Of a stretch of DNA of 64,000 bases, positions 7,959 to 47,223 are shown piece by piece. A program made the translations under genes and the position numbers. How positions within the stretch are numbered: position 1 is the stretch's first letter; each line of letters starts with the position of its first letter. Source of the DNA: Desulfocarbo indianensis (lineage in GTDB: Bacteria; Desulfobacterota; Desulfarculia; Desulfarculales; Desulfarculaceae); the NCBI GenBank assembly GCA_001184205.1, contig LBMP01000007.1, positions 1-64,000 on the forward strand, written 5' to 3'. The notes under the pieces are model-generated. The model did not search any database. It was given only the letters and a program-made list of their open reading frames with translations, and was not told the origin of the DNA.

Positions 7959-7988
7959 TTGACAAGCGGGAAGCCGGTTAGCTACAAA
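7959..7988 (+). promoter_or_regulatory. Candidate sigma70 promoter of the liv operon
   Basis: TTGACA at 7959-7964 and TACAAA at 7983-7988 are separated by 18 bases, in a 288-base gene-free stretch that is more AT-rich than its surroundings. It would leave a leader of about 150 bases before livG. The -35 box is perfect, the -10 box matches 4 of 6. No operator was recognised. Confidence 0.45.
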
Positions 7989-8144
7989 AATTCTAGCAGG
8001 GGCGACTCTCATTTAATTCCTACACACTTCATAAAGGTCCATACGGATAAATTTGTGTATTGCTATGCAACTTGCTCAATGTGCGTCCAACGGCCCCCAC
8101 AGAGACGGGTCTGTGACTGTGCTTGGCAGGGCTAGGGAGGAACT

Positions 8145-8990
<846 letters not shown>

Positions 8991-9026
8991 GCGTTGAGCC
9001 ACCTTCCGTCTGTAAGGAGCTGAATT

Positions 9027-20703: not shown

Positions 20704-20714
20704 GCCTATGCCTC

Positions 20715-21566: not shown

Positions 21567-21627
21567 GACTTGCTTCCTCTCTGGCTTGTGATGGGGGCGA
21601 AATATTACTCCGTCAAGCAAGCCGATA

Positions 21628-24135: not shown

Positions 24136-24971
24136 TCCCCCGGCGGAAAATGATCGCTCACCAGCTCCATGAGGCTGCGGGCCAGATCGGGGTCGTCGGT
24201 GGCCGGGCCCACCATGGCGCTGAGGCAGGCCAGATGGGGGTCCATGCCCTGGGCCATGAGCTGGCCCGCGTAAACCACCAGCCTGGTGGAAATTCCTTCG
24301 CTGAGCCCGTACTCGGTCAATCCCCTGGCGCGGCCGGCCAGCTCAACCAGATGAGCGGCAAGCTCGCGGCTGACGCAGCTCTCGGCCATCACCACCTGAA
24401 TCTCAACCTCGGGCGGCGGGAAATCAAAGCTCAAGGCCACGAAGCGCTGCCGGGTGGAGGGCTTCATTTCCTTTAACAGCGACTGGTAGCCGGGGTTGTA
24501 GGAAACCGCCAGCAGGAAATCCGGATGCGCCTTCAGCACGGTGCCCAGCTTGTCCAGGGGGAGCTGGCGGCGATCGTCGGTGAGGGGGTGGATCAGAACC
24601 ACGGTGTCCTTGCGGGCCTCCACCACCTCGTCCAGATAGCATATGGCCCCATGGCGGGCGGCCAAGGTGAGAGGCCCGTCCCGCCAAACCGTGTCGCCGT
24701 CCTCAATGAGAAAGCGCCCCACCAAATCCGCCCCCGAAAGATCCTCGTGGCAAGCCACGGTTATCAGCGGCCTGCCCAGGTGATAGGCCATGTGGCGCAG
24801 AAAGCGGGTCTTGCCGCAGCCGGTGGGGCCCTTGAGCAGCACGGGCAAGCGCTTGGCGGCGGCGGCGCGGAACAGTTCGCGTTCCGAGCCCACCGCCAGG
24901 TACATGGGCTCCTCTGGGATGCGGAAAGCCGCCAAGGGGTCGGCGGGAGCTGTGGTGGATTTGGCCGGCAT
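24132..24971 (-). CDS. CbbQ/NirQ/NorQ-type MoxR AAA+ ATPase
   Basis: 279 residues. Walker A GPTGCGKT at 48-55, [16 protein letters not shown] (MoxR-type pore region), Walker [12 protein letters not shown] near residue 112, sensor 1 [10 protein letters not shown], and arginine finger region [15 protein letters not shown]. Chaperone ATPase for metalloenzyme activation, cytosolic. Coupled to the VWA gene by ATGA overlap. The 238 bases upstream, separating it from the Mo-hydroxylase large subunit, hold no gene that I can support and no obvious promoter. Confidence 0.9.
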
Positions 24972-25209
24972 GGCTCAGGCCCCCTTGCCGAGGGCGGCGA
25001 GGGGTGAGCCCAGCGGGCGGGACGGCAGGGCATCCGCCCCTGACGCGCTAAACGAGCCGGCCAATCCCGGGCGGCCAACCAGACCTCAATCGTGCGATGC
25101 TAGTTCATGCTGAAACACGTGATTTGGCATTCCTCGTGACCGCTTTCTTGAAAATCTGACCTTGTCTTACCACGCCGCCAGGGCGCGGCCGGTCTCCACG
25201 CTCCCAATT

Positions 25210-27528: not shown

Positions 27529-27995
27529 GGCATCTTCTCCGCGGCGGTCTTGATGGCGTCCACGATTTGCTTGTATCCCGTGCAGCGGCAGAGGTTGCCT
27601 TCGATGGCGGTGCGGATCGTTTCCTCGTCGGGGGCGGCGTCCTCGTCCAGGAGCGCCTTGGCGCTCATCACCATGCCCGGCGTGCAAAAGCCGCACTGCA
27701 CCGCGCCGAAATCCACAAAGGCCTGTTGCAGGGGATGCAGGGAACCATCCGGCCCGGCCAGGCCCTCCACCGTCTCCACCCGGCAACCGGACGCTTCCAG
27801 GGCCGGCATTATGCAGGAATTGACCGCCAGGCCGTCAACGATAACCGTGCAGGCCCCGCACTCGCCCTCGCCGCAGCCTTCCTTGGCGCCGGTAAGCTCG
27901 AACTCCTCGCGCAGGAGGCTCAACAAGCTCTGCCTGGTGTCGGCTTCTGCGGTAACCTCGTGGCCGTTGAGGATGAATTGCATATGTTTTTTCAT
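27525..27995 (-). CDS. Molybdenum hydroxylase small subunit, two [2Fe-2S] clusters
   Basis: 156 residues from ATG 27995. Plant-type ferredoxin domain with Cys 41, 46, 49 and 61, then the [2Fe-2S]-binding helical domain with Cys 101, 104, 136 and 138 (QCGFCTPGM and NLCRCTGY). Transfers electrons from the Mo site to the FAD subunit. Both ends overlap the neighbours by ATGA, so the three subunits are made in fixed ratio. No twin-arginine leader, so the enzyme is cytosolic. Confidence 0.95.
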   Translation of the reverse strand: MKKHMQFILNGHEVTAEADTRQSLLSLLREEFELTGAKEGCGEGECGACTVIVDGLAVNSCIMPALEASGCRVETVEGLAGPDGSLHPLQQAFVDFGAVQCGFCTPGMVMSAKALLDEDAAPDEETIRTAIEGNLCRCTGYKQIVDAIKTAAEKMP

Positions 27996-28873
27996 GATCG
28001 GCCTCCCGTCTGGGCCCTTTGCACGGCGGTCCAGGCCACCCGCGGCAGCACCACCCTGATCATCTCCTGGCGGTACCAGCGGCTGGCGCGCACGTCGTCC
28101 CAGGGTTTGGCCTCCGCTAAAGCGGCCTCCGCCGCGGCCGCGAACGTCTCCTCGCTGGGCGCGGCGCCGGTGAGCTTTTCTTCGGCCGCGCGCAGGCGCA
28201 AGGGGGTGGGGCCCACCGCGCCGGCGGCGGCCCGGGCCTTGGCGATGCGCTTGCCGCCCGCTTCCAGCTCCAGCAGTATACAGACGCTCACCACGGCCAG
28301 ATCCAGGGCGGCCCTGCGGCCCAGCTTGTAAAAGGCCATGCCGCAATTGGGCTGAGGCGCGGGGAACTCCAGCGCCAGCAGCACTTCGTCGTCCTGGGCA
28401 TTGGTCTGGCGGGGGCCCGGAAAAAAGTCGGCCAAGGGCACGGCGCGTTCGCCCTCGGGCGAAGCCAGCCGGCACACGGCCTCCAAGGCCAGCAGGGGCG
28501 GGATGGTGTCGCCGCTGGAAACGGCGCTCATCACGTTGCCGCCCACGGTGGCCAGGTTCCGCATCTGGGTGCAGCCCATCACCGACACCGCGTCGTGCAA
28601 GGCCGGCAGCTTGCCGCGCACCAGCTCGGAAGCCGTGAGCTGGGTCAAGGTGGTTCCGCCGCCTATGCGGATGACTCCCTTGTCTTGGGATATGCCTTGC
28701 AGTTCTTGAACCCGTCGCAGACTTATCAACGCTTGAAAGTCCAGACGGCCGGCTCGCTTCAGCACCAGAACGTCGGTGCCGCCGGCCACGAATCTGGCCT
28801 CGCCGCCATGGCCTTTCTTGATGCGCAAGGCATCTGCCAGCTCGGTCGGCTGATGATAATCATAGTCTTTCAT
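27992..28873 (-). CDS. Molybdenum hydroxylase FAD-binding medium subunit
   Basis: 293 residues from ATG 28873 (TTG 28879 possible). FAD_binding_5 domain with ARFVAGGTDVLVL and TVGGNVMSAVSSGDTIPPLLALEA, then CO_deh_flav_C. Passes electrons out of the hydroxylase to an unknown acceptor. No extra [4Fe-4S] insertion like that of hydroxybenzoyl-CoA reductase beta is visible. Follows the TRAP dctM gene by 30 bases. Confidence 0.93.
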   Translation of the reverse strand: MKDYDYHQPTELADALRIKKGHGGEARFVAGGTDVLVLKRAGRLDFQALISLRRVQELQGISQDKGVIRIGGGTTLTQLTASELVRGKLPALHDAVSVMGCTQMRNLATVGGNVMSAVSSGDTIPPLLALEAVCRLASPEGERAVPLADFFPGPRQTNAQDDEVLLALEFPAPQPNCGMAFYKLGRRAALDLAVVSVCILLELEAGGKRIAKARAAAGAVGPTPLRLRAAEEKLTGAAPSEETFAAAAEAALAEAKPWDDVRASRWYRQEMIRVVLPRVAWTAVQRAQTGGRS

Positions 28874-28903
28874 GGCCAATCAACCTTGTCTCCATGGGAC
28901 GTA

Positions 28904-33415: not shown

Positions 33416-33808
33416 TTAGTGAACTCCTTGCATCAGGGGGTAGAAATAAGTGCCCGCGGTCAAAGCGAACAACAATGACAAAAGCAGCGAAACCGGGTGA
33501 GTCGCGCGGAAAAAGCGAAACTGCAGGCCCAGGCGCAGGAGCCAAAAGGCTCCCATGATGGTTATGAGTTTGCGCCCCAGCGCGCTGGTGAGCAGCTCCG
33601 GCCCAAAGACCAGAGAGAGATAGGCCGCCGCCACGAAGTAAAAAGTGAGGCACAGGTTGAGGATCTGATAGATGCCCCGGTTGACCAAATCCAAGGAGGA
33701 CAGGGCCTCGCGCCATTTAAAGATTCTGGGGAAGAACACGTGGAACATCGCCCAGCCCACATGCAGGGCGCCGCCCGCGTAAAGGCTGTATAAATGCGCC
33801 TGGTTCAT
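33416..33808 (-). CDS. Small four-span membrane protein of unknown function
   Basis: 130 residues from ATG 33808, overlapping the hyuB stop (ATGA). Four hydrophobic segments: about 8-27, 45-67, 80-95 and 103-122. No family recognised. Charged loop FPRIFKWREALSSLDLVNRG follows the first span. It is tightly coupled to the hydantoinase pair and 5 bases before the CoA ligase, so it is part of the catabolic operon and not a stray. It could be a permease helper or electron-transfer anchor; no heme or cofactor motif is evident. Confidence 0.7.
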   Translation of the reverse strand: MNQAHLYSLYAGGALHVGWAMFHVFFPRIFKWREALSSLDLVNRGIYQILNLCLTFYFVAAAYLSLVFGPELLTSALGRKLITIMGAFWLLRLGLQFRFFRATHPVSLLLSLLFALTAGTYFYPLMQGVH

Positions 33809-35541
33809 TGCGCTCCTCGCAGGCGGGCGGTTTCCTCGGCGTCCACCTCGCCATCCGGAGTGAGCGCCACGCCGTAGACCTCGCGGGCGGCTTCGGCGCT
33901 GACCACCTGGTTCTTCACTTCCCAGGCCACCTTTTCGACCTTGCGCTCCTTGGGGTCGCCGAAGCCGCCGCCGCCGCCGGCCTCCTGGTGATAAATCGTT
34001 CCCTTGGGCACTCCGCGCACCAGGTCCTTGGTGGTGCACTGATATTTCTGGCCGTCGGGATATCGCAGCCATATGGTGTTGAGCGCGCCCTCGCCGCCGC
34101 CGTGGGAGCCGTAGGCCGGCTCCACGTCGCCGTCGCCGAAGGTGACCACCTGGGTGTCGTCGCTGCCGATGACGAACTCGGTGATGACGCCCAGGCCGCC
34201 GCGCCAGCGGCCGGCGCCGGCCGAGTCGGTCCAATACTCGTGGCTTTTCAAGATATGCGGCGTTTGCTGCTCGAACATTTCGTAATCCTGGTCCAGCACG
34301 CCGCCGGAGGCGTCGATCATGCCTATGTGGTCGTAGCCGTCCATGCCCTGGATGGCGCCGGAACCGCCCTTCAGGCCCATGAAGCCGATGTCCACGTAAG
34401 GCTCGCCCTTGCGCGGGTCGATGCCGGTGGTGAGCGAGCAGAGCAGCTCGTTCCATTCCGCGGTGACCCGGTCGGGGATGACCGGAGCCAGGGCGCGCAT
34501 GACGGCGTCCGCGTTGTTGGGGCACAGATGGTTGCCATAGGTGGTGGCCGCCGGATAGGAGGCGTTCAGGATGGTGCCCTCGGGAATGGTGATTTTCATG
34601 GGCCGCACCATGCCGTCGTTGTGGGGCATGTCCGGGTTGACCATCTGCAGGAAGGTGAGCAGGGTGGCCGAGGCGCTGCTGGTGTAGGTGCCGTTCACGA
34701 AGCCGGTGGTCTGGGCGTCGGTGCCGGTGTAATCAAAAGCGATCTCCTCCTCCTCCACCGTGATCTTCACCCTGATGGTGAAAACCGTGCCCGGATGGTG
34801 ACCGTCGAAATAGGCGCGGGACTCGCCCTGGTACACGCCGTTGGGGATGCTGCGGATTTCGGCGCGCATCATTTTCTCGGTGGATTCGAAGAGAAAATCC
34901 TTGTGCGCCTCGAAGGCCTCCAGGCCGTAGCGGTCCAACAGCATGTGGATGCCGCGCTCGCCCACCACGCAGGAGCCGATCTCGGCCCGCATGTCCTCGG
35001 CCACGATGTCCAGCCGGATGTTGGCGAAGATGAGGTCCCACACGTCTTTTCTCAGCTTGCCCTTTTCGTAGACCTTCACCGGCGGGATGCGCAGGGCCTC
35101 CTGCCAGACCTCGGTGGCCTGGGGGTTGTAGCCGCCGCGCACCGCGCCGCCGATATCGGCCTGGTGACCCTTGCAGGCCGCCCAGGCCACCAGCTTGCCC
35201 TCCCAGAAGATGGGCTTGAAAGCGGCCACGTCGTTGTTCTGGTTGCCCAGGCTGAAAACGTCGTTGTGGAAAATCACGTCGCCGTCGTGCAGATCATCGC
35301 CGAAATATTCCACCAGGTATTCGCACACCGGCCCCAGGCTGAAGGCCAGGATGGGCAGGTTCTCGCACTGCTCCAGCATCTTGCCCTTGGCGTCGTAAAG
35401 GCCGGTGACGAAGTCCTTGGCCTCGCAGAGAATCGGCGAGCGGGTGGTGCGGGCCAGGGCGATGGACATCTCCTCGGTGATGGACTTCAGCCGCCGCTGC
35501 AATATGGAAACCAGTACCTTGTCTATCTTGACCTGGCTCAT
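33805..35541 (-). CDS. Hydantoinase B/oxoprolinase family subunit
   Basis: 578 residues. HyuB fold with the metal-site region HNDVFSLGNQNND, CKGHQADIGG and later HLCPNNADAVMRALAPVIP and ETGAG-like DSAGAGRWRGGLG motifs. With HyuA it forms an ATP-dependent enzyme that either opens a lactam (oxoprolinase, hydantoinase) or carboxylates a ketone (acetone/acetophenone carboxylases). Only two subunits are present, no small AcxC-type zinc subunit, which favours lactam hydrolysis, for example of an oxindole. ATGA overlap with both neighbours. Confidence 0.88.
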   Translation of the reverse strand: MSQVKIDKVLVSILQRRLKSITEEMSIALARTTRSPILCEAKDFVTGLYDAKGKMLEQCENLPILAFSLGPVCEYLVEYFGDDLHDGDVIFHNDVFSLGNQNNDVAAFKPIFWEGKLVAWAACKGHQADIGGAVRGGYNPQATEVWQEALRIPPVKVYEKGKLRKDVWDLIFANIRLDIVAEDMRAEIGSCVVGERGIHMLLDRYGLEAFEAHKDFLFESTEKMMRAEIRSIPNGVYQGESRAYFDGHHPGTVFTIRVKITVEEEEIAFDYTGTDAQTTGFVNGTYTSSASATLLTFLQMVNPDMPHNDGMVRPMKITIPEGTILNASYPAATTYGNHLCPNNADAVMRALAPVIPDRVTAEWNELLCSLTTGIDPRKGEPYVDIGFMGLKGGSGAIQGMDGYDHIGMIDASGGVLDQDYEMFEQQTPHILKSHEYWTDSAGAGRWRGGLGVITEFVIGSDDTQVVTFGDGDVEPAYGSHGGGEGALNTIWLRYPDGQKYQCTTKDLVRGVPKGTIYHQEAGGGGGFGDPKERKVEKVAWEVKNQVVSAEAAREVYGVALTPDGEVDAEETARLRGAQ

Positions 35542-37643
35542 TTGCCGATCCTCCCCAAAACTTCATTTTCCTTGGTGGGCAGATAAATCGTCATGCTGCC
35601 GTAGCGGTCCACCACCATGTGATACTCGGGCGTGATGAAGGTGGAGGTGTTGACCTGCTCCACGATGGCCGGGCCGGCGACCCGCATGCCGTGCTTGAGC
35701 AGGGCGCCGTCGTAGACCGGCACTATTTGGAATTGGTTGGCGCTGGGCACGAAAGCCAAGCGGTCGCCTTTCTTGGCGCTGGAGGCGTCGTGGCCGAAGA
35801 AAGGCTCCTCGTTGAAGCGGGGCTTCTCGGTCACGCCTATGGTCTGCACCCGGATGTTGATCAGCTCCACCGGCGTGTTGGTGTCGCTCAGCTCGTAACC
35901 GTAGAGGCGGTTGTGGGCCGGATGGAAGCGGGCGGCCATGGCGTCGAGATCGCCCTTTTTTATCTCCTCCTCGCTGACCTCCACGCTCACCTCGTGGTAT
36001 TGCTTGAGGTAGCGCAGATCAAGGACGTAGACCGTGCGCACCCGGTTTTCCGGGATGCCTTCCTCGCCCAAAAGGCGCAGGCCCTCGGAGCGCATCTCGC
36101 CGACGAGCGTTTGGAAGTGCTTGATATCGATATCCCGCAGCTGGCAGGTGTAGGTCCGCACGAAATCGTGCTGCAGATCGCTCATGAGCATGCCGGCCGC
36201 GCAGAAGATGGAAGACTCGCGCGGCACCAGGAGCAGCGGTATCTCCAGCTCGTAGGCGATCATGCAGGCGTGGTTGGGACCGGCGCCGCCGGCCACCACC
36301 AGGGGGAAGTCCCTGGGATCGACGCCTTCCTCGACGCTCACCTCGCGCACCGCCGCGGCCATGTTCACGTTGATCACCTGATACATGCCGGCCGCGGCCT
36401 GCTCCACGGTGAAGCCCAGGGGATCGGCCACGTGCCGCTTGATGGCGGCCCTGGCTTTTTCCGGGCTGAGCGGCATCTTGCCGCCGGCGAAGAAGCCCGG
36501 CGCCAGATAGCCCAGCACCAGGTCCGCGTCGGTGCAGGCGGGCAGTTCGCCGCCCAGGCCGTAGCAGGCCGGCCCCGGCGAGGAGCCCGCCGACTGGGGC
36601 CCCATGCGCAGGAGGCCGCCTTCATCGATCCAGCCGATGGAGCCGCCGCCCGCGCCGATGGTCACCACCTTGAGCATGGGCAGGGCGATGCGGCGGCGGT
36701 CGATGTCGCCCTCGGTGGTGACCAGGGGCTTGCCGTCCTTGACCAGGGCGGCGTCGAAACTGGTTCCGCCCATGTCCACGGTGATGAGGTTCTTTTGGGC
36801 GTGCACCTCGCCATAGGCGATGCCCGCCACCGGGCCGCCGGCCGGGCCGGAAAGCAACGTCGTGGCCGCGTTGGCCTGGGCGTTGGCCGGGCTGGTCACG
36901 CCGCCGTTGGACTGCATTATCAGAAGGACGTTCCGGTATTTCACGTCCGCCAGCTTCTTGACCAGGCTGTCCAGATAGCGCTTGAGAATAGGGCCCACGA
37001 AGGCGTTCAAGCAGGTGGTGGATATGCGGTCGTAAAAACGGATGGAAGGCAGCACCTGGGTCGAGACGCTCAAGTAGGCCTCGGGCAGGATTTCCTCCAC
37101 CAGCTTGGCCGCGGCTTCCTCGTGGGCCGGGTTGGCAAAGGAATTCATGAAGCAGATGGCCACCGCCTCCACGCCCTGGGCCTTGAAGGATTCGCAGACC
37201 TGGCGCACCTCGTCCAGATCGAGGGGCTCCAGCTGGTTGCCGGCGTAATCCAGGCGGCCTTTCACCGGCTGCCGCAGATAACGCGGGATCACCGGCTCGG
37301 CGTTGGGGTAGCGGTTGTTGTACTGCTCCTCGCGGATGCCGCGCCGCATCTCCAGGGCGTCGCGCACGCCGGGGGTGGTCAAAAGCCCGCTTTTGGCTCC
37401 CCGCAAGGTCAGCACCGCGTTGGTGGTCACCGTGGTGCCGTGCACGATGGTGGTGACCTGCTTGAGAAAGTCCTCGATGGAAAGCCCCCTGGCGGCGGCC
37501 ATTTCGCCGATGCCCTTCATGGTGCCGATGCTGGGGTCCTGGGGAGTGGAGAGCACTTTGTATATCTCGGAGCTCCCGTCCTCCATGGTGAGTAAAAAGT
37601 CAGTGAAAGTGCCGCCTACGTCTATGCCGATCTTATACTTCAT
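35538..37643 (-). CDS. Hydantoinase A/oxoprolinase family ATPase subunit
   Basis: 701 residues. ASKHA ATPase with IGIDVGGTFTDF at residues 5-16, IVHGTTVTTNAVL, the second phosphate motif VDMGGTSFDAAL, and AGGAGPNHA. It phosphorylates the amide or carboxylate substrate to drive hydrolysis by HyuB. Stop overlaps the hyuB start. In the anaerobic indoleacetate operon of Aromatoleum a pair of this family opens the oxindole ring. Full length, no truncation. Confidence 0.9.
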   Translation of the reverse strand: MKYKIGIDVGGTFTDFLLTMEDGSSEIYKVLSTPQDPSIGTMKGIGEMAAARGLSIEDFLKQVTTIVHGTTVTTNAVLTLRGAKSGLLTTPGVRDALEMRRGIREEQYNNRYPNAEPVIPRYLRQPVKGRLDYAGNQLEPLDLDEVRQVCESFKAQGVEAVAICFMNSFANPAHEEAAAKLVEEILPEAYLSVSTQVLPSIRFYDRISTTCLNAFVGPILKRYLDSLVKKLADVKYRNVLLIMQSNGGVTSPANAQANAATTLLSGPAGGPVAGIAYGEVHAQKNLITVDMGGTSFDAALVKDGKPLVTTEGDIDRRRIALPMLKVVTIGAGGGSIGWIDEGGLLRMGPQSAGSSPGPACYGLGGELPACTDADLVLGYLAPGFFAGGKMPLSPEKARAAIKRHVADPLGFTVEQAAAGMYQVINVNMAAAVREVSVEEGVDPRDFPLVVAGGAGPNHACMIAYELEIPLLLVPRESSIFCAAGMLMSDLQHDFVRTYTCQLRDIDIKHFQTLVGEMRSEGLRLLGEEGIPENRVRTVYVLDLRYLKQYHEVSVEVSEEEIKKGDLDAMAARFHPAHNRLYGYELSDTNTPVELINIRVQTIGVTEKPRFNEEPFFGHDASSAKKGDRLAFVPSANQFQIVPVYDGALLKHGMRVAGPAIVEQVNTSTFITPEYHMVVDRYGSMTIYLPTKENEVLGRIGK

Positions 37644-37673: not shown

Positions 37674-39311
37674 TTAGAAAATCGAGGGCTCCTTAAGCTC
37701 TCCCAACTCCTGCCTCATGATTCCGGCCATTTCGCCCACCGTGGCGAAAGCCGAACAGCATTGCACCAAGGCGGGCATAACGTTCCGGCCGGCCTTGAGC
37801 GCCTTTTCCAGGGCCTTGAGCCCCGCGCTTACGTCCTTCTGATTGCGTGTACGTTTGACCTCCTTGAGGCTTTTGATCTGGGCCTCGGCCGAAGCCAGGG
37901 AGTATTCGTGCAGTTCCACCTCGGGCTCTTCGTCTTCCTCAACGTATTTGTTGACGCCGACCTTTATGCGGCGGCCCTCGGCCAGATCGCGTTCCCATTC
38001 ATAAGCCTGCCGCGAAACCAGGCGCTGCACCTGGCCGCTCTCCACCGCGGCCACCATGCCGCCCCAACGATCCACCTGCTCCATCTCCTCCAGGACCTTG
38101 TCTTCCATCTGCCTGGTGAGGGTTTCGATGAAATAGCTGCCGGCCAAGGGGTCCACCGTGTCGCGCAGGCCGATCTCGTCCATGAGGATTTCCAGGGTGC
38201 GCAGGCTCAAGAGGGCCGAGGTGGGGGTGGGAATGGTGAAGGCCTCGTCATAGGAACAGAGCGCCGTGGTCTGGGCTCCGCCCAGGGCCGCGGCCAGGCC
38301 GTAATAGGCCCCGCGCACGATGTTGTTCAGCGGTTGGGCCTTGGTGAGTCCGTAGCCGCCGCCGCCGAACAGGCCGCGCAGGTAGAGGGCCTTTTTGTCC
38401 TGGATGCCGTAGCGCTCCTTGAGCAGCTTGGCCCAAAGCTTGCGCGCGGCCCGGAACTTGGCCACCTGCTCCCAGAGGTTGCCGAATATGTTGAGGTTGA
38501 AGCTGAAACGCTCGGCCACCTGGGTGGGCTCGTAGCCGCGGGCCACCACGTTGTCCACGTAGGCGAAGGCTATGCCGAAGGCAAACGCGATCTCCTGGGC
38601 CGGCGTGGCTCCGGATTCGCGGATGTGATAGCCGCAGATGCTCACCGGATTGCAGCGGGGCAGCTTGCCCTGGGCGGTGGCGTATTCGATCACGTCGCAG
38701 GTGAGGTCCACCCCGGCGCGCACCGGGAAAATCCAGGCGCCCCTGCCGATGATCTCCTTGAGGATGTCGTTCTGCGGCGTGGCGCTGATCTTGGCGGTGT
38801 CCACCCCCTGGCTGCGGGCCAGGGCCTCGTACATGGCCAGCATGATGCAGGCCACCGCGTTGATGGTGAGCCCCGAGCCGATCCTGGTCAGGTCCAGGCC
38901 CTTGAAGGCGGTCTGGAAATCGACCAGGGTGTCCACCGACATGCCCACCCGGCCGATCTCGCCTTCGGCCATGGGGTCGTCGGAATCGTAGCCCATCTGG
39001 GTGGGCAGGTCGAAAGCCACGTTGAGGCCGTTCTGGCCGTGGCCGATGAGCAGCTTGAAGCGTTCGTTGGTTTCGGCCGGGGTGCCGAATCCCGAATACT
39101 GGCGGGTGGTCCAGGCCCGGGAGCGGTAGCCCAGGGGATGCAGCGCCCGGGTGAAGGGATACTGGCCCGGATCGCCCAGGTCTTGCTGGTAATCGAAGCC
39201 CACGGCCGCCAGGTCGTCCGGGCCGTACACCGGCTTCACCTTGATGCCGCTATGCAGTTCGACGTCGGTTATGGCGTCCTTGTTGTCCTTGGTGTATTTG
39301 GCTACGCCCAT
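37674..39311 (-). CDS. B12-dependent acyl-CoA mutase large subunit (methylmalonyl-CoA mutase type)
   Basis: 545 residues, substrate-binding TIM barrel without a B12 domain, as in split mutases. By comparison with Propionibacterium MCM as I remember it, the substrate residues are kept: Tyr72 (Tyr89 in RQYSGFG), Gln180 (Gln197 in QNDILKE), Arg190 (Arg207) and His229 (His244 in GYHIRESG). Isobutyryl- and 2-hydroxyisobutyryl-CoA mutases replace the Tyr and Arg, so a CoA ester with a free carboxylate is expected. In this operon (2-aminophenyl)succinyl-CoA to (2-aminobenzyl)malonyl-CoA is proposed; succinyl/methylmalonyl-CoA is the alternative. Confidence 0.9.
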   Translation of the reverse strand: MGVAKYTKDNKDAITDVELHSGIKVKPVYGPDDLAAVGFDYQQDLGDPGQYPFTRALHPLGYRSRAWTTRQYSGFGTPAETNERFKLLIGHGQNGLNVAFDLPTQMGYDSDDPMAEGEIGRVGMSVDTLVDFQTAFKGLDLTRIGSGLTINAVACIMLAMYEALARSQGVDTAKISATPQNDILKEIIGRGAWIFPVRAGVDLTCDVIEYATAQGKLPRCNPVSICGYHIRESGATPAQEIAFAFGIAFAYVDNVVARGYEPTQVAERFSFNLNIFGNLWEQVAKFRAARKLWAKLLKERYGIQDKKALYLRGLFGGGGYGLTKAQPLNNIVRGAYYGLAAALGGAQTTALCSYDEAFTIPTPTSALLSLRTLEILMDEIGLRDTVDPLAGSYFIETLTRQMEDKVLEEMEQVDRWGGMVAAVESGQVQRLVSRQAYEWERDLAEGRRIKVGVNKYVEEDEEPEVELHEYSLASAEAQIKSLKEVKRTRNQKDVSAGLKALEKALKAGRNVMPALVQCCSAFATVGEMAGIMRQELGELKEPSIF

Positions 39312-39312
39312 C

Positions 39313-39735
39313 TTAAGCCTCGACTCTCTTTTCTTCGGCGGCCCGGCGCACGCCCGCGACTATGCTGTCCAGGGCGGAGCCGCCGGGAAATACGCCGTCT
39401 ATGCCCAGCTCCTTGAGGGCGGGTATATCGCGGTGGGGGATCACGCCTCCCACCACCACGGCCACGTCGTTCAGTCCCTTGTCCTTCAAGCCCTTCATCA
39501 GCTTCTGGCTGATGGGCAGATGGGCGCCGCTCATGATGCTGAGCCCGACCACGTCCACCGCCTCCTGCACGGCCGTGGCGATGATTTGATCCACGGTTTG
39601 ATGCAGGCCCGAATAGATCACTTCAAAGCCGGCGTCCCTCAGGGCGTGGGCGATAACCTTGGCCCCCCGGTCGTGCCCGTCAAGGCCCGGTTTGGCCACC
39701 AATATGCGCACGGTTCTTTGGTTTGCTGACGCCAT
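39313..39735 (-). CDS. Acyl-CoA mutase small subunit, cobalamin-binding
   Basis: 140 residues, a stand-alone B12-binding domain: KPGLDGHDRG holds the Asp19-x-His21-x-x-Gly24 motif whose His coordinates cobalt base-off/His-on; SIMSGAH and GGVIPHRDIPALKELGIDGVFPGG complete the fold. One base separates it from the large subunit gene and none from the regulator upstream. It carries adenosylcobalamin to the active site. No MeaB-type GTPase chaperone is in the window. Confidence 0.93.
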   Translation of the reverse strand: MASANQRTVRILVAKPGLDGHDRGAKVIAHALRDAGFEVIYSGLHQTVDQIIATAVQEAVDVVGLSIMSGAHLPISQKLMKGLKDKGLNDVAVVVGGVIPHRDIPALKELGIDGVFPGGSALDSIVAGVRRAAEEKRVEA

Positions 39736-40434
39736 TTAGGTCTCCTCGGTGTCTTGCTGCTTAAGCTGGTCCAGAATCCAGGAACCGCCGGTCAGCACAT
39801 GAGCCCGGCAGGCCTTGACGGCCTGATCCTGGTCTCCCCGTTTCAAGGCCGCCAGCATTTCGCGGTGGTCCTCCAGGGAGCGGATCGCCGCCTTGGGGTC
39901 CGAAAGCAGGGCCACCCTGAAACGGTGCAGGTTTTCGGCCAGGTCGTTGATCAGCCGGATGAGCAGTTGGGAGCCGGCCAGTTTGTAGAGCATGGCGTGG
40001 AACTGGGTGTTGAGTTCCACCAGGCGCTTGCGGTCGTCCGCTATGAGCGCCTTTTCGAATTCGGCCACGTTGCGCTCCAGCTCGGCCAGGGTGTTCCTGG
40101 TTATGCGCCGGGCGCCCAGTTCCACGGCGTAGGATTCCAGGGCGGCGCGCACGCCGGTGACCTCCTCCACCTCCTGCGCCGAGATGGGCCGCACCTTGTA
40201 GCCGCCGCGGTTGCGGCGCTCCACCAGCCCCTCCTGGACCAGGCGGTGCAGGGCTTCGCGGATGGGCGTGCGGCTGGTGCCTATGCGGCGGGCCAGGTGT
40301 TCCTCCACCAGACGTTCGCCGGGCTTCAGCTCTCCCTCGGAGATCATGCGCCGCACCAGGCCGAAGACCTGTTCCCCCAGGGGGCGGCGTTCAATGCGAA
40401 CTTGGGCCGGCACGCTTGCTTTTTCGGCTATCAT
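39736..40434 (-). CDS. GntR family regulator with FCD ligand domain
   Basis: 232 residues from ATG 40434, overlapping the acyl-CoA dehydrogenase stop (TGATG). Winged helix HTH with GTSRTPIREALHRLVQEGLVERRNRGGYKV, then an all-helical FCD domain with the usual metal-ligand positions (ELNTQFH, SLEDHREMLAALKRGD, CRAHV). Such proteins are usually repressors released by an organic acid or acyl-CoA. It sits inside the operon it probably controls; a matching palindrome lies at the operon promoter (44950-44965). Confidence 0.92.
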   Translation of the reverse strand: MIAEKASVPAQVRIERRPLGEQVFGLVRRMISEGELKPGERLVEEHLARRIGTSRTPIREALHRLVQEGLVERRNRGGYKVRPISAQEVEEVTGVRAALESYAVELGARRITRNTLAELERNVAEFEKALIADDRKRLVELNTQFHAMLYKLAGSQLLIRLINDLAENLHRFRVALLSDPKAAIRSLEDHREMLAALKRGDQDQAVKACRAHVLTGGSWILDQLKQQDTEET

Positions 40435-41579
40435 CAAAACTTCAACTCCCGGGCGATGTTCTGTTGAAGCACTTCGTGGGTGCCTCCGCCGTACAAGAGA
40501 AAGCGGGCGTCGCGGAAGTAGCGTTGGGCGGGGTATTCCATGGAATAGGCATAGGCTCCCATGATCCGGGTCGCTTCGTCGCAGCAGCGGCAGGCGGTCT
40601 CCGTGGCGAAATACTTCACCATCATGGATTCCTTGCCCGCGGGCAACCCGGCGTCTATCTTGCGGGTGGTTTCATAGAGCATCAGCTCGGCGGCCCAGAT
40701 ATCGGTGGCCATGTTGGCGATCTTGGACTGAATGAGCTGATACTTGTTGATGGTCTTGCCGAAGGCCTGGCGTTCCTTGGCGTACTGGAAGGCCGTCTCA
40801 TAGGCCGCCTTGGCCAGGCCCAGGGCCAGGGCCGCGGTCATGGAGCGGATATCGGCCAGAATGCTGAGCAGGGACTTAAGCCCCTTGCCCACCTCGCCCA
40901 GGATGTATTCGCCGGGTATGCGGCAATCGTTGAAGGCCACCTCGGCGATGTCGGTGGTGCGGGTGCCCAGGGTCTCGAAGCGGGGGCTGATGCGCACGCC
41001 CGGCGTATCGCGGGGCACGAAGAAGAAATTCAGGCCCCGCACGCCCTTGCTGCGGTCGGTCTGGCACAGCACCGTGAAAAAATCGGCGATGGGCGCGTTG
41101 GTGATCCAGGTCTTCATGCCGCTTATCACCCACTCGTCGCCGTCCTTGGTGGCGGTGGTGGCCACCGCCCCCAAATCGCCGCCCGCCTCGGGCTCGGTGA
41201 GGCAGAAGGAGCCGATCTTTTCGCCGCGCATGGCCGGGGCGAAATATTTCTCGTGCATCTCCTTGCTGCCGAAGCGGTAGAGATGCTCGGTGCCCATGAG
41301 GCATTGCTTGGAGACCTTGGCCGCCAGGGAGAGGAGCCCCCTGGCCAGTTCCTCGCTCATGATGCAATAGAGCGTGGAGTTGCCGCCGCAGCCGCCGCCC
41401 TTCACGGGATAGCGCATGCCGAATAGGCGCATCTGGGCGATTTTACGCATGAGCTCCTTGGGAATCTTGCCGCTTTCGTCCATGTCGCGGGCCAGAGGCG
41501 TTATCTCCTGGGCCACGAAGCGGGAGATTATCTGGCGGAGCAGTTTTTCCGGGTCTGATCTAAGCGCGGGCTTGCTCAT
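40434..41579 (-). CDS. Acyl-CoA dehydrogenase, candidate (aminobenzyl)malonyl-CoA dehydrogenase
   Basis: 381 residues from ATG 41579. Complete three-domain flavoprotein: CLTEPEAGGDLG and WITNAPIADFFTV (FAD/acyl binding), RQAFGKTINKYQLIQSKIANMATD, and YSMEYPAQRYFRDARFLLYGGGTHEVLQQNIAREL at the end. Electrons go to the EtfBA pair encoded just upstream. In the Aromatoleum auxin pathway the equivalent enzyme oxidises and decarboxylates benzylmalonyl-CoA to cinnamoyl-CoA. Whether this one decarboxylates cannot be seen from the sequence. Lies 2 bases after etfA. Confidence 0.9.
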   Translation of the reverse strand: MSKPALRSDPEKLLRQIISRFVAQEITPLARDMDESGKIPKELMRKIAQMRLFGMRYPVKGGGCGGNSTLYCIMSEELARGLLSLAAKVSKQCLMGTEHLYRFGSKEMHEKYFAPAMRGEKIGSFCLTEPEAGGDLGAVATTATKDGDEWVISGMKTWITNAPIADFFTVLCQTDRSKGVRGLNFFFVPRDTPGVRISPRFETLGTRTTDIAEVAFNDCRIPGEYILGEVGKGLKSLLSILADIRSMTAALALGLAKAAYETAFQYAKERQAFGKTINKYQLIQSKIANMATDIWAAELMLYETTRKIDAGLPAGKESMMVKYFATETACRCCDEATRIMGAYAYSMEYPAQRYFRDARFLLYGGGTHEVLQQNIARELKF

Positions 41580-41581
41580 GG

Positions 41582-42769
41582 CTAGCGTGCCTCCTTCAGC
41601 GCCGCCAGCATGGCGGGCACCACTTTGAACACGTCGCCCACGATGGCGTAGTCGGCCACCGAGAAGACGGGCGCGTTGGCGTCGCGGTTGATGGCCACGA
41701 TGAAACGCGAGCCGAGGATGCCGGCGCGGTGCTGGATGGCGCCGCTGATGCCGCAAGCGATGTAAAGCTCGGGCCGCACCGTGACGCCGGTCTGGCCGAT
41801 CTGGCGCTCCACGCCGATCCAGCCTTCCTCCACCGCCACCCTGGTGCCGGCCAGTTCCGCGCCCATCTCCTGGGCCAGCTCGGCCAGGAGGCCGAAGCCT
41901 TCCCGGCTGCGGCAGCCGCGGCCGCCGGCCACGATGGTCTTGGCCTGGCTGATATCCACCCCCTGGCTGGCCAGGGGAGTGAAGGACATCAGCTTGAGCA
42001 ACAGGTCGCTGTCCAGAAGCTTGACTTCCTGCTTTATAACCTCGGCCTGGGCCCCGGCCCGGGCCTGGGGAGGGGCCATGACCCCCGGACGCACCGTGGC
42101 CATCTGGGGCCGCACCCTGGGGGTGTAGATGGTGGCCATGACGTTGCCGCCGAAGGCCGGGCGGGTCTGCAACAGGTTGCCGGTTTCCTTGTCGATGCCC
42201 AGTTGGGTGCAGTCGGCGGTGAGCCCCAGGTCCAGGCGGCGGCTCAGCCGGGGGGCCAGGTCGCGGCCCAGGGGGGTGGCTCCCATGAGCAGCACCGCCG
42301 GCGCGTGGGCCTGGATCATGTCGGCCAGCACCCTGGTGAAGGCCAGGGTGGCATAGGCGGCCAGCCTGGGGTCGTCGGCCAGAAAGACCTTCTTGGCGCC
42401 CAGGGAGGCCAGTTCGTCCGCCAGGGGCTCCAACCCGCTGCCCACCAGCACCGCGCATAAATCCTGGCCCAGTTCGGCGGCCAGGCGGCCTCCCTCGCCC
42501 ATGAGCTCCCGGCTCACGGGCAGGAGCTTGCCCTCCTGGGTTTCGGCGAAGACCCAGACCCCCTTGTAGCCGGAAAGATCGGGGATGGGCTCCTGCTCGA
42601 TATCGGATGCCAGGGCCTCGAACTTGCACGCGGCAAGACAGGCCCCGCATTCGGTGCAGCGGTCGGTGACCCGGGCCAATTTGTCCTCGATCACCATGGC
42701 CCCGTAGGGACAGGCCTTGGCGCAGAGCCCGCAGCCCGTGCAATTTTCCTCAATTATCCATACAGCCAT
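41582..42769 (-). CDS. etfA: Electron transfer flavoprotein alpha subunit with N-terminal ferredoxin domain
   Basis: 395 residues. Residues 1-60 are a two-cluster ferredoxin: Cys 10, 13, 16, 20 and Cys 38, 41, 44, 48. The rest is EtfA with the C-terminal FAD site ([70 protein letters not shown]). Ferredoxin-fused EtfA is known from clostridial and sulfate-reducer systems, including the caffeyl-CoA reductase complex. It could wire the acyl-CoA dehydrogenase to a low-potential or membrane Fe-S acceptor. Twelve bases after etfB. Confidence 0.95.
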
Positions 42770-42781
42770 GATCTGGCCTCT

Positions 42782-43579
42782 CTATATTAGGTTCCGCTGG
42801 CTGAGCGCGTTGACCAGATGGCGGGCCTGTTCCTCGGCAGTGCCTTCGATCCAGTCGGTCTTGCGTTCGCTCTTGGGGCTGAAGGTTTGCATGACCTGGG
42901 TGAGCGACCCCCTGAGGCCGGTGCTCTTGGCCGGTGCTTCTATGTCGGCCGCGTCCCAGACCCGAATGGGCGACTTGGGGCCGCAGGCCCACAAGAGCCG
43001 GTCCACCATGGCCCAGCGGGGATCCTGGGGCGCGTCCAGCACCGTGACCACCGCCGGCAGGGGACAGACCACCTCCTCCACCCCGCCCGGCAGCTTGCGC
43101 CAGGCCCTTAAGGAGCCGTCTTCCAGCTTCAGTTCGCTGACATAAGTTACTTGGGGCCAGCCCAGATGCTCGGCCACCTGGGGACCGATCTGGGCGGTGT
43201 CCCCGTCTATGGCCTGGCGGCCGGCGATCACCAGGTCCAACCGGGTCTCGGCCAGGAGTTTTTCCAGGGCCTTGCCCAGGGTGTAGCTGGTGGCCCAGGT
43301 ATCGGCCCCGGCGAAGTTGCGGTCGCTGAGCAGCACCCCGCCGTCGGCCCCCATGGCCATGGCCTCGGTTATCACGTCTATGGCCTGGGGCGGGCCCATG
43401 CTGATCACCGTTACCTTGGCGCCGTGGGCGTCCTTCAGCATCAGCGCCGTTTCCAGGCCCAGACGGTCGTCCGGGTTCATGATGCTCTCGACGCCCTCGC
43501 GGATCAGGGTCCCGGTCTTGGGGTCCAGCTTGATCTCGTTGGTGTCGGGCACTTGTTTGACTAGCACCGCGATGTTCAT
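42782..43579 (-). CDS. etfB: Electron transfer flavoprotein beta subunit
   Basis: 265 residues. MNIAVLVKQVPDTNEIKLDPKTGTLIREGV, then ISMGPPQA, SDRNFAGADTWATSYTLGKAL and GRQAIDGDTAQIGPQVAEHLGWPQVTYV. These blocks are closer to the bifurcating-type EtfB of clostridia than to the mitochondrial type, judged from memory of those sequences. Partner of the ferredoxin-fused EtfA immediately downstream; receives electrons from the acyl-CoA dehydrogenase. Confidence 0.95.
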   Translation of the reverse strand: MNIAVLVKQVPDTNEIKLDPKTGTLIREGVESIMNPDDRLGLETALMLKDAHGAKVTVISMGPPQAIDVITEAMAMGADGGVLLSDRNFAGADTWATSYTLGKALEKLLAETRLDLVIAGRQAIDGDTAQIGPQVAEHLGWPQVTYVSELKLEDGSLRAWRKLPGGVEEVVCPLPAVVTVLDAPQDPRWAMVDRLLWACGPKSPIRVWDAADIEAPAKSTGLRGSLTQVMQTFSPKSERKTDWIEGTAEEQARHLVNALSQRNLI

Positions 43580-43688: not shown

Positions 43689-44876
43689 TCAGATGACGCC
43701 CTGTTGCTTAAGCTTGTCCAGGTCCGCCTTGCCAAGCCCCAATCTCCCCAGAACCTCGGCGTTGTGCTCGCCGAAGCGCGGGGGGAAATCCAGCCGGCCG
43801 CCCCGCTCCTCCAGAAACGGCGTGGAGTAGGGCGGCGGGGCCAAAGTCAGCTCCAGCCCGCTTAGGGGGTCCTTGCTCTTGAGCAGGGCGGGGCTGATCA
43901 GGGGGTCCTGCACCAGTTCGGGGATGGTCTGAATCTTGGATACGGGAAGTCGAATCTGCTGGAGCTTGGCGATCAAATCCGCGCTGGGCAGCCGGCTGGT
44001 CACCTCGGCCAGGGCCAGGTTCAGGTTTTCCACGTCGTGGATGCGGCCCAGGTTCTTTTGGTAATCCGGCTTGTCCAGATGGCTGAATTCGGGAAGCTTG
44101 ACCAGCTCGGACCACTGGCGGTCGTTGCCCACCGCCAGATAGATATAGCCGTCGGCGGTGGGGTACACGCTGACCGGCGCGAAAAACTGATGGGTGTTGC
44201 CCCGGCGGGCCACCTTGACCTGGAAGGTGCTGCTCAAGGTGATGGGCACCGTGAGCCAGCTCACCGTGGAGGCCAGCATGCTCAAATGCAGGGTGGCTCC
44301 CTGGCCGGTGCGCTCCCTGGCGTACAGCGCCTTCATGATGGCCCCATAGGCGTGCTCGCTGGTGCCCATGTCGGGCAGAGGCACGCCCACCACCTGCGGC
44401 TCGCCGCCCGCCTCGCCGGTCATCTCCATAAGTCCGCCCCTGGCCTGCAAAATCGGGTCATAGGCCGCTTCCACGTGGTCCGGGCCGAAGCCGCTGACCC
44501 CCAGCCAGATCAAATCCGGCTTAACGCCGCGCAGGATTTCCGGGCTTATGCCAAGTTTTTCATATGAATTGGGCAATTGATTGGTGGTGAAAACGTCGAT
44601 ATTCAATTCCTGGATAAGGCGCTTCAACAGGTCGCGGCCTTGCGGATCGGCCAGGTTGAGGGTCACCGCCTTTTTCCCCGCGTTGATGGGCAGGAAATAC
44701 TGGTTCATGCGCTCTTCGCCGGGCAAAGGTTCGCCCACCAGCCGGTTGGGGTCGCCCAGTTTAGGGTGCTCCAGCCGGATCACCTTGGCGCCGTCCATGG
44801 CCAGGCGGTAGGTGAGATAGGGCAATACCGTGGCCTGCTCCAGGCTGAGGACCGTGATGTCGGCAAATGGGTTCAT
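43689..44876 (-). CDS. Class III (CaiB/BaiF) CoA-transferase, candidate phenylsuccinyl-CoA-type transferase
   Basis: 395 residues, ATG behind AGAGGA. Family III fold: LSLEQATVLPYLTYRLAMDGAKVIRLEHP at the start, the catalytic Asp in VGVPLPDMGTSEHAYGAIMKALYARERTGQG (about residue 169), and a C-terminal PYSTPFLEERGGRLDFPPRFGEHNAEVL. Moves CoA between two acids through acyl-aspartyl anhydrides. First gene of the operon, 89 bases after the predicted transcription start. In the Aromatoleum indoleacetate operon a transferase of this family makes the phenylsuccinyl-type CoA ester for the mutase. Confidence 0.9.
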   Translation of the reverse strand: MNPFADITVLSLEQATVLPYLTYRLAMDGAKVIRLEHPKLGDPNRLVGEPLPGEERMNQYFLPINAGKKAVTLNLADPQGRDLLKRLIQELNIDVFTTNQLPNSYEKLGISPEILRGVKPDLIWLGVSGFGPDHVEAAYDPILQARGGLMEMTGEAGGEPQVVGVPLPDMGTSEHAYGAIMKALYARERTGQGATLHLSMLASTVSWLTVPITLSSTFQVKVARRGNTHQFFAPVSVYPTADGYIYLAVGNDRQWSELVKLPEFSHLDKPDYQKNLGRIHDVENLNLALAEVTSRLPSADLIAKLQQIRLPVSKIQTIPELVQDPLISPALLKSKDPLSGLELTLAPPPYSTPFLEERGGRLDFPPRFGEHNAEVLGRLGLGKADLDKLKQQGVI

Positions 44877-44949
44877 GATTTCCTCTGGCCGGCTGGAAAA
44901 CGTTGCGTTGACGGGAACGGCGAGCCGGTTTATTATGTGCGCGAACAGT

Positions 44950-44965
44950 ATGCTGTATACAGTAT
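44950..44965. promoter_or_regulatory. Putative GntR/FCD operator
   Basis: ATGCTGTATACAGTAT: a perfect 10-bp palindrome CTGTATACAG (44953-44962) extended by near-symmetric flanks, inside a CAGTATGC direct repeat (44946-44953 and 44960-44967). FCD-type GntR proteins commonly bind palindromes centred on GT..AC. It begins about at +1 of the - strand promoter, so a bound repressor would block transcription of the operon that encodes the GntR protein. Confidence 0.6.
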
Positions 44966-44971
44966 GCGAGA

Positions 44972-45001
44972 ATTATAGGTCGGGCCGATAAGCCGTGTCA
45001 A
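44972..45001 (-). promoter_or_regulatory. Consensus sigma70 promoter of the CoA-transferase/mutase/hydantoinase operon
   Basis: On the - strand TTGACA (45001-44996) and TATAAT (44977-44972) are both perfect and 18 bases apart. The start point should fall near 44965, at the edge of the palindromic operator, leaving an 89-base leader to the CoA-transferase. A perfect promoter next to an operator suggests strong expression held down by a repressor. Confidence 0.75.
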
Positions 45002-45198
45002 GGGGGCATCGTGAAACAAAATCGATTTGAGAGGCTTTTTTTGAAACCCCCTGTATTCACTGCAAAATGCCAATCAGGCCGGCTCGGCGGGAATAGTTAT
45101 AGCCCCAGGGTCGCATAAAACCTATAATGCCCGGGACATGCTTACGACCGGACAAGCAACGCGTTCGGCCCTGGGCCGAAGGAAAGAGGGAGTGGATA

Positions 45199-47223
45199 AT
45201 GAGTCAGGATCGCAAATTATACCCCACCATGTTTAACCCTTTGTTGCTGAAGCCCAGCCGGCCCCTGCCCAAGGAGATGGCGGTGATCGGGGCGGGCACC
45301 ATCGGCCCGGATATCGGCTATTATCTCAAGAGCGCTCTGCCCAACACGACATTGCACTTGGTGGATATAGCGGAAAAGGCTTTGAAGGCCGCGGAGGAGC
45401 GTCTCACCGGCTATGCCAACAAGGCCGTGGACCGCGGCAAGATGAAGCCCGAACAGGCCCAGGCGGTTTTGCAGAACATCAACTACACCAGTGATTACGG
45501 CGCCATAAAGAACGCGGGCCTGGTCATCGAGGCGGCCACCGAGGATATCCCCCTCAAGCAGAAGATATTCTCCCTGGTGGAGGACACGGTGAGCCCGGAG
45601 GCCATCATCACCTCCAACACCAGCTCGATTCCGGCCGACCGCATCTTCGGGGCCATGAAGCACCCCCAGCGCACCACGGTCACCCATTTCTTCGCCCCGG
45701 CCTGGCGCAGCCTGCCGGTGGAGGTGATCGATTGGGCCAAGGCCGACCGGGAGGTGGTGGATTACCTGTGCTGGTTCTTCGCCCACACCGGCAAGGCCCC
45801 CATCATGACCGCCAACGCCATTTGCTTCATGCTGGACCGCATTTTCGACAACTGGTGCAACGAAGCGGCCTATCTGCTGGCCGAGGCCGGCGCCGCCCGG
45901 ATAGACAAGGTGGCCGAGGAGTTCGTCTATGCCGGGCCCTTCTTCGTCTTGAACATGGCCAACGGCAACCCCATCATCATGGAGACCAACACCCTGCAAA
46001 TGGAAGAAGGCGCTCATTACAAGCCGGCCTCCATCCTGGGTTCGGTTTACCGCTGGCAGATTCCCCGCCCCGGCAGCAAGGTGGAGGTGCCGGCCGAGGT
46101 GAAGGGCACGGTGCGCGACCGTTTGCTGGGCATTTTGTTCTCCCAGTCCTTTGACATCGTGGACCGGCAGATCGGCACCAAGACCGACCTGAACTTCGGC
46201 TGCCAGGTGGCCTTGGGCTTCCGGCGCGGGCCCCTGGACGTCATGGCCAAGCTGGGCGAGGCCGAGGTGAAGCGGGTCATGGCCGCGTTCCTGAAAGCCC
46301 GGCCCGGCTTTCCCCAGGCCCAGGAGCCCTTGGCAAGCTATCTGGATTTCAAGCGCCACGTGCTGGTGGACGATCTGGACAAGGTGAAGGTCATCACCAT
46401 CCGGCGGCCCCAGGCCATGAACGCGCTCAGCGACGAGGTCACCGACGAGATACTGGCGGTGCTTAAAGAATTCGCCGACGATCCGGCGGTGGAAGGCTTC
46501 GTGATCACCGGCTACGGCAACCAGGCCTTTTCCGCCGGGGCCGACATCGGCAAGTTCCCCTCCATGCTGGGCGACGCCAAGGCCGCGACCCAGTACGCCC
46601 GCGATTGCGCCAAGGTGCAGGTGTTCATGGACAAGATGAACAAGCCCGTGGTGGCGGCGATCAACGGCATCGCCCTGGGCGGAGGCCTGGAGGTGGCCCT
46701 GCGCTGCCACGGCCTGGTGGCCTCGCCCAGGGCCCGCTTCGGCCTGCCCGAGATCACCCTGGGCATTCTGCCCGGCATCGGCGGCTGCGTGGTGCCCTAC
46801 CGCAAGTGGCCCAAGGGCGCCGAGCTGTTCCATCAGATGCTGTGCCTGGGCAAGCAGATCACGGCCAAGGAGGCCCAGGAGATCGGCATGGTCTCCCGCT
46901 TGGTGGATGGCTATGGCGAGTTGATCGCGGCGGCGGTGGAAGAGGTCAAGAAGCTGGCCGGCAACCTGCCCCGCATCCAGGAAGGCCCGGTGCAGGTGCC
47001 GCCCGTGCAATTGCCCGATCCGCCCATGTGCGGCAAGCTCCAGCTCAGCCGCGAGGCGGTGGGCCTGCTCAAGGAGACCATCGAGTCCGCCGCCGCGGCG
47101 GACAGCCTGGATAAGGCCCTGGATATCTGCTATCAGGGCTTCGGCAAAATCGCCTGCCTGGACGCCGCCAAAGAAGGCATCGGCGCGTTCCTGCAGAAAA
47201 GGAAGCCGGAATATAAGAAATAG
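45199..47223 (+). CDS. 3-hydroxyacyl-CoA dehydrogenase/enoyl-CoA hydratase fusion protein
   Basis: 674 residues from ATG 45199 with AGGGAG upstream. N-terminal NAD-binding dehydrogenase (AVIGAGTIGPDIGYYL; NTSSIPADRIFG; HFFAPAWRSLPVEVI with catalytic-His region), C-terminal hydratase from about residue 390 with AFSAGADIGKF oxyanion region and both catalytic Glu positions in GGGLEVALRC and FGLPEITLGILPG. Domain order is opposite to FadB. Catalyses hydration and oxidation steps of beta-oxidation. Divergent from the operon at 44876 and sharing its 322-base control region; a TATAAT at 45123-45128 may be its -10. Likely acts on the aminocinnamoyl-CoA-type product. Confidence 0.9.
   Translation: MSQDRKLYPTMFNPLLLKPSRPLPKEMAVIGAGTIGPDIGYYLKSALPNTTLHLVDIAEKALKAAEERLTGYANKAVDRGKMKPEQAQAVLQNINYTSDYGAIKNAGLVIEAATEDIPLKQKIFSLVEDTVSPEAIITSNTSSIPADRIFGAMKHPQRTTVTHFFAPAWRSLPVEVIDWAKADREVVDYLCWFFAHTGKAPIMTANAICFMLDRIFDNWCNEAAYLLAEAGAARIDKVAEEFVYAGPFFVLNMANGNPIIMETNTLQMEEGAHYKPASILGSVYRWQIPRPGSKVEVPAEVKGTVRDRLLGILFSQSFDIVDRQIGTKTDLNFGCQVALGFRRGPLDVMAKLGEAEVKRVMAAFLKARPGFPQAQEPLASYLDFKRHVLVDDLDKVKVITIRRPQAMNALSDEVTDEILAVLKEFADDPAVEGFVITGYGNQAFSAGADIGKFPSMLGDAKAATQYARDCAKVQVFMDKMNKPVVAAINGIALGGGLEVALRCHGLVASPRARFGLPEITLGILPGIGGCVVPYRKWPKGAELFHQMLCLGKQITAKEAQEIGMVSRLVDGYGELIAAAVEEVKKLAGNLPRIQEGPVQVPPVQLPDPPMCGKLQLSREAVGLLKETIESAAAADSLDKALDICYQGFGKIACLDAAKEGIGAFLQKRKPEYKK

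Follow-up and report, generated by a model that had tools for sequence, protein, structure and literature searches.

A putative face-to-face divergon around one GntR/FCD operator at a CoA-dependent catabolic operon of Desulfocarbo indianensis

Genes at the locus

The window, i.e. the whole stretch of 64,000 nucleotides that was analysed, carries a catabolic operon on its minus strand and a divergent gene on the plus strand. The predicted genes are as follows (in order of transcription for the operon):

43689-44876, minus strand: CaiB-type (family III) CoA transferase, operon gene 1 (PF02515)
42782-43579, minus strand: EtfB (ETF beta), named by sequence and by its place before EtfA; the ortholog is kept in place
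41582-42769, minus strand: EtfA, ETF alpha with an N-terminal ferredoxin domain (PF01012, PF00766, Fer4)
40434-41579, minus strand: acyl-CoA dehydrogenase, ACAD (PF00441, PF02770)
39736-40434, minus strand: GntR/FCD regulator, proposed repressor of promoters P1 and P2 (PF00392, PF07729)
39313-39735, minus strand: acyl-CoA mutase small subunit (MutS), B12-binding (PF02310, TIGR00640)
37674-39311, minus strand: acyl-CoA mutase large subunit (MutL; PF01642), best solved relative HcmA (4r3u)
35538-37643, minus strand: hydantoinase/oxoprolinase A-type subunit (HydA), caprolactamase-alpha-like (PF01968; NF050156 at 706 bits, below the cut-off of 1000)
33805-35541, minus strand: hydantoinase/oxoprolinase B-type subunit (HydB; PF02538; NF050157 at 408 bits, below the cut-off)
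45199-47223, plus strand: 3-hydroxyacyl-CoA dehydrogenase/enoyl-CoA hydratase fusion (HAD-ECH), proposed target of P2 (PF02737, PF00378)

The acyl-CoA dehydrogenase frame extends to 41582, where it reads AMSK..., and the ATG is at 41579. HcmA is a 2-hydroxyisobutyryl-CoA mutase with the active-site residues Ile90 and Asp117, and although it is the top-scoring solved relative of the large mutase subunit we rejected this assignment, since Tyr and Ala are present at the places aligned to these two residues. The large subunit has Tyr and Arg at the aligned places as in methylmalonyl-CoA mutase, and hence the enzyme may act on a dicarboxylyl-CoA.

The window also encodes a molybdenum hydroxylase (25210-28879, minus strand). 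The region 19603-28879 comprises genes for its FAD, 2Fe-2S and Mo subunits as well as accessory genes (CbbQ-type AAA, VWA and XdhC); all share the strand of the operon and follow genes for a TRAP transporter and a PaaK-like CoA ligase. Together, the operon enzymes and the molybdenum hydroxylase suggest the breakdown of a heterocycle or lactam.

In the HAD-ECH fusion the dehydrogenase domain precedes the hydratase domain, which is opposite to FadB and FadJ. No counterpart of this gene was detected in the 20 further genomes of the order; where the divergent gene of the relatives was readable it encodes a molybdenum-hydroxylase FAD subunit, followed by the 2Fe-2S subunit.

Two predicted promoters face each other around a putative operator dyad

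The region between the CaiB and HAD-ECH genes contains the following sites:

44996-45001, minus strand: P1 -35 box TTGACA (TTGACA/TTGTCA kept in 6/6 family members)
44972-44977, minus strand: P1 -10 box TATAAT, with an 18-nt spacer to the -35 box (the same in 6/6)
44946-44969: putative operator, a 24-bp imperfect dyad, TCGCATACTGTATACAGCATACTG in minus strand reading, with the core CTGTATACAG at 44953-44962
44931-44936, plus strand: P2 -10 box TATTAT, with a 17-nt spacer to the P2 -35 box
44908-44913, plus strand: P2 -35 box TTGACG, facing P1 and directed towards 45199 (TTGACG/T in 6/6 family members)

A reading of the sequence alone had noted a perfect minus strand promoter, TTGACA-18-TATAAT, with a palindrome behind it, and both are present at 45001-44946. 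The pattern TTGACA-N16-19-TATAAT has one match in the window (shuffle mean 0.01) and six in the whole genome (5.1 Mb), compared to none for the reversed control pattern. With the P1 start predicted approximately 7 nt past the -10 box, at 44965, the dyad spans about -4 to +20.

The second promoter, P2 (TTGACG-17-TATTAT, 44908-44936), was absent from that description and is an important addition to an observation that is otherwise confirmed. In the window 35 nt separate the two -10 boxes, with the operator dyad in the gap; taking the P2 start 7 nt past its -10 box (≈44943), the dyad spans approximately +4 to +27 of P2. The P2 leader up to the HAD-ECH start is ≈255 nt.

Eight of the 12 pairs of the dyad are formed in the window, and a dyad of this strength was matched in 1-6% of shuffles; on the basis of one genome alone it is therefore not decisive, and these figures by themselves would leave room for a chance arrangement, or for an RNA hairpin acting without a regulator. 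The core CTGTATACAG has a single match in the whole genome, which is weak evidence since the reversed control also occurs once. Its GTATAC fits the published operator consensus of the FadR subfamily, NyGTM-N0-1-KACNy (PMC4494728). The same 24 nt can also be read as two copies of CAGTATGC on the plus strand, 14 nt apart. An arrangement of three tandem 7-bp GTATNNN repeats, as for NanR, was also considered; in two family members (G005 and G018) the repeats fade but the dyad does not, and we therefore prefer the dyad. A half-like box, CCTGTATTCACTGC, is present at 45048-45061, ≈95 nt from the operator, and is a possible auxiliary site.

Conservation within the family

We compared this spacer in related genomes, as the sequence-only reading had proposed, and five further family members have the site at the corresponding position. 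Specifically, a near-consensus P1 with an 18-nt spacer followed by the dyad is present in the window, G007, G011, G005, G018 and G002, i.e. in all six members for which the CaiB upstream region was readable. The dyad is centred 12-16 nt past the P1 -10 box (23-24 nt in G018), and the palindrome varies in sequence, e.g. CTGGATGCAG in G007 and G011 and TTGCATACAA in G005. The six aligned dyads share the columns A5, T6, T9, G10, A12, T13, C15, A16, A19 and T20, and symmetric columns pair in 80.6% of the cells compared to 15-53% in slid controls. Cases in which both sides have changed are not more frequent than in shuffles (183/500), so covariation adds little and the argument is carried by the percentage of pairs formed.

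P2 is conserved as well. The pattern TTGAC(G/T)-N17/18-TAT(T/C/A)(A/T)T is present on the opposite strand in 6/6 family members with a shuffle frequency between 0.00035 and 0.001 per member, and the -10 boxes of P1 and P2 are 33-38 nt apart across the six, with the dyad between them.

The gene order CaiB-EtfB-EtfA-ACAD-GntR-MutS-MutL-HydA-HydB is kept in G007, G005 and G002, the latter with a 3.5-kb insertion behind CaiB, while in G011, G018 and G015 contig ends break the operon into pieces. Wherever the contig of a family member spans the region, the GntR gene is part of the operon.

The GntR/FCD protein

The operon had been predicted to encode its own GntR/FCD protein at 39736-40434, and the gene is found there. 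The protein has an N-terminal GntR winged helix-turn-helix (PF00392, 71 bits; cut-off 27), which begins at residue 20, and a C-terminal FCD domain (PF07729, 101 bits; cut-off 24); the N-termini of the homologues are shorter.

The known ligands of FCD-type effector domains are mainly carboxylic acids, and in this family a set of N-H-H-H residues holds a metal and, via the metal, a carboxylate. Residues N142, H146, H190 and H212 are invariant in 11 sequences and, judging from the family, this D/N-H-H-H set would provide the metal ligands. The inducer is thus most likely a free acid of the pathway, and a CoA ester, which had been put forward together with a pathway acid, appears less likely given the acids known for FCD domains and the invariance of these residues.

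The D. indianensis genome has a single close GntR of the operon type and one intergenic full TGTATACNNNATAC site, as expected for a dedicated pair. A second full TGTATACNNNATAC (C111:624401) falls within a frame predicted to be coding and was attributed to chance. Among the matches listed in the scan for GntR homologues most were unrelated FCD regulators; also among them were distant relatives of the module in L079 and L080, where the contigs start inside the operon. In one genus, paralogous regulators (46-51% identical) are positioned in front of other genes and have TTGAC(A/G)...TTGTATACGARATAC before their own gene; the motif thus travels with the protein subfamily.

Operator and regulator co-occur across the phylum

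CaiB orthologues were detected in 70 out of 395 genomes and GntR homologues (E ≤1e-36) in 57. In 69 genomes the stretch up to 220 nt from the CaiB start was examined for GTATAC: the box is present upstream of CaiB in 41/44 genomes with a close GntR and in 5/25 without (Fisher p = 6e-10, a value that overstates independence because the genomes are related). Eight control hexamers were much less frequent, with GntR or without. Among the five positive genomes without GntR, G315 has a GntR gene 70 nt behind CaiB that scored just below the threshold. The three GntR-positive genomes lacking GTATAC upstream of CaiB are G007, with its variant dyad, and G282 and G362, in which CaiB and GntR are on separate contigs. 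In many genomes the box directly follows the -10 box, e.g. TATAAA-CCCCATTGTATACAGTATCC, while in other families it lies over the -10 box (L224, L225). In distant operon relatives of other families GntR still adjoins the mutase genes.

The palindrome is thus conserved in orthologous loci both in the family and in the phylum, contrary to what its dismissal would have called for. This conservation of sequence and position over many families, together with the link to one protein, is the decisive evidence against chance, and we regard the chance or hairpin explanation as extremely improbable.

The palindrome might instead be bound by another, unlinked member of the superfamily, and other TGTATACNNNATAC sites elsewhere in the relatives do indicate that similar boxes may be recognised by several FCD proteins. 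Against this, the D. indianensis genome has only the one GntR of the operon type, and the operator site is present or absent together with the operon GntR; a role for an unlinked protein is accordingly very unlikely. In several relatives a further near-identical box, TGTATAC(C/G)GTATAC, is present beside a TTGAC-type -35 box elsewhere in the genome (L162, L163, L169, L181-L184); these are probably operators of other FCD regulators.

P2 is associated with the divergent gene

Facing promoter pairs were scored with thresholds of at least 11/12 for P1 and at least 9/12 for P2, set after the first six cases were known. In a scan of 527 kb (the window and related loci) such pairs were present only at this divergon, namely in the six family members, L219, L228 and G020. 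Among 74 orthologous regions, 13 of the 22 with a recognised divergent gene have a facing pair compared to 2 of the 52 without (p = 4e-7); with related, i.e. not independent, genomes and post hoc thresholds, the p-values given here are guides only. Of the two exceptions, L243 is truncated at the end of its contig and L247 matches weakly. Where an orthologue has both GntR and a divergent gene, the pair is present in every case (9/9).

P2 lends weight to the suggestion that this site may also control the divergent gene at 45199. GntR could also repress P1 only, with HAD-ECH served by a promoter of its own nearer to the gene and P2 being a relic or a source of antisense interference: HAD-ECH is a lineage-specific neighbour, the P2 leader is long in the window, and a weak promoter-like sequence, TTGAAA-16-CAAAAT (8.5/12), is located nearer to HAD-ECH. 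Yet P2 is present in every GntR-positive divergon regardless of which gene is divergent, and almost never without a divergent gene. Moreover, in L080/L222 a 60% identical relative of the HAD-ECH fusion belongs to the same pathway set, being co-directional and ahead of EtfB-EtfA-ACAD-GntR. Repression of P1 alone is therefore unlikely, if less so than the other alternatives considered here.

Proposed mechanism

Taken together, the locus is probably a face-to-face divergon: a single operator would allow the GntR/FCD protein to repress P1 and P2, with a carboxylate of the pathway as the inducer. P1 on the minus strand would drive CaiB-EtfB-EtfA-ACAD-GntR-mutase-HydAB, and P2 on the plus strand would direct transcription towards the HAD-ECH fusion. 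From the position of the dyad just behind both starts we infer that a bound GntR/FCD dimer would block open-complex formation or promoter escape at P1 and P2 alike. Binding of the pathway substrate, or of an early carboxylate intermediate, to the FCD domain would cause the repressor to leave, and both transcripts would be made. The polymerase footprints of P1 and P2 overlap, so the promoters would also be expected to compete when free. Since the P1 transcript includes GntR as its fifth gene, release of the repressor would also yield more of it, as in the negative-feedback switch that had been postulated for the locus, and the location of GntR inside the operon in all family members covered is consistent with it.

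Some FCD regulators both activate and repress, and GntR might hence act here as an activator or in a dual role. The dyad, however, overlaps or follows the starts of both promoters, which is the position of a repressor, and both promoters are near consensus such that activation should be unneeded; in L224 and L225, from other families, the same GTATAC box sits on the -10 box. We consider activation to be highly doubtful and repression from the shared operator to be the better explanation.

Relation to known systems

In Escherichia coli the bioABFCD (BirA) and argECBH (ArgR) loci have facing promoters, divergent transcripts and one operator region that controls both. At the sequence level the present locus has the same layout: its two promoters lie on opposite strands and converge on a single putative operator. 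The repressors and pathways are unrelated, and the E. coli systems are biosynthetic and shut off by the end product, whereas here a substrate-induced catabolic operon is expected. In the literature that we searched, mostly outside subscription journals, no direct precedent was found for a facing-promoter layout with a GntR protein.

Divergons of the FCD-type GntR class with a single intergenic site have been described (PMC4494728), and by the tests available the present locus would belong to them: shared features are an FCD GntR protein, a GT-N2-AC palindrome, one divergent intergenic site and catabolic genes. In the published FadR-subfamily cases the regulator is the first gene of one arm while here it is the fifth operon gene, and in contrast to them two recognisable, conserved near-consensus promoters here face each other around the site (PMC4494728).

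The E. coli NanR operator, (GGTATA)3, is likewise bound by an FCD GntR repressor, located downstream of the promoter and built of GTAT-containing repeats (PMC8012715). It differs in its tandem repeats, in being occupied by three dimers and in the long N-terminal extension of NanR, compared to the conserved dyad and the short GntR N-terminus here (PMC8012715). We rejected a NanR-type operator, as the window has no GGTATA repeats and the dyad is conserved; the NanR-type N-terminal extension (≈32 residues) is likewise lacking in a protein with a GntR domain that begins so early.

Possible exchange of the operator

In G020 and G359 GTATAC is missing, while the facing promoters, CaiB and the divergent FAD subunit are retained (the P1 of G359 is weak, 9.5/12). 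The corresponding slot is occupied by other palindromes, TGTAGCGATTTAACCGCCACA in G020 (8/10 pairs; ≈1% of shuffles, or 0.2% for a 27-nt version) and AAAGGACCAAAGTCCTTT in G359. No close GntR homologue was detected in G020 at 1e-20, G359 has only matches of 31-33% identity, and no linked regulator was recognised among the reading frames near the changed operators of these two genomes. Facing pairs in which another palindrome takes the place of the GTATAC box lie at L316 (≈7960-8250) and L049 (≈9020-9100).

Tentatively, the facing promoters might constitute a conserved bidirectional cassette in which the operator slot has been exchanged in evolution while the promoters and pathway genes were retained, a proposal that we hold with clearly less confidence than the divergon itself. 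If true, selection would act on the layout of the circuit irrespective of the regulator in charge, and these loci offer a natural series in which the facing-promoter layout seems to be kept and the operator changed.

The analysis assigns a defined candidate regulator and operator, along with two promoters, to a CoA-dependent catabolic module that is uncharacterised and common in the phylum. The module consists of a CoA transferase, a B12 mutase and an ATP-dependent lactamase-like enzyme, in many cases accompanied by a divergent molybdenum hydroxylase. A ligand screen on one protein and one DNA fragment could reveal the inducer and hence the pathway substrate. Finally, our data suggest that one local regulator probably switches two neighbouring sets of breakdown genes together.
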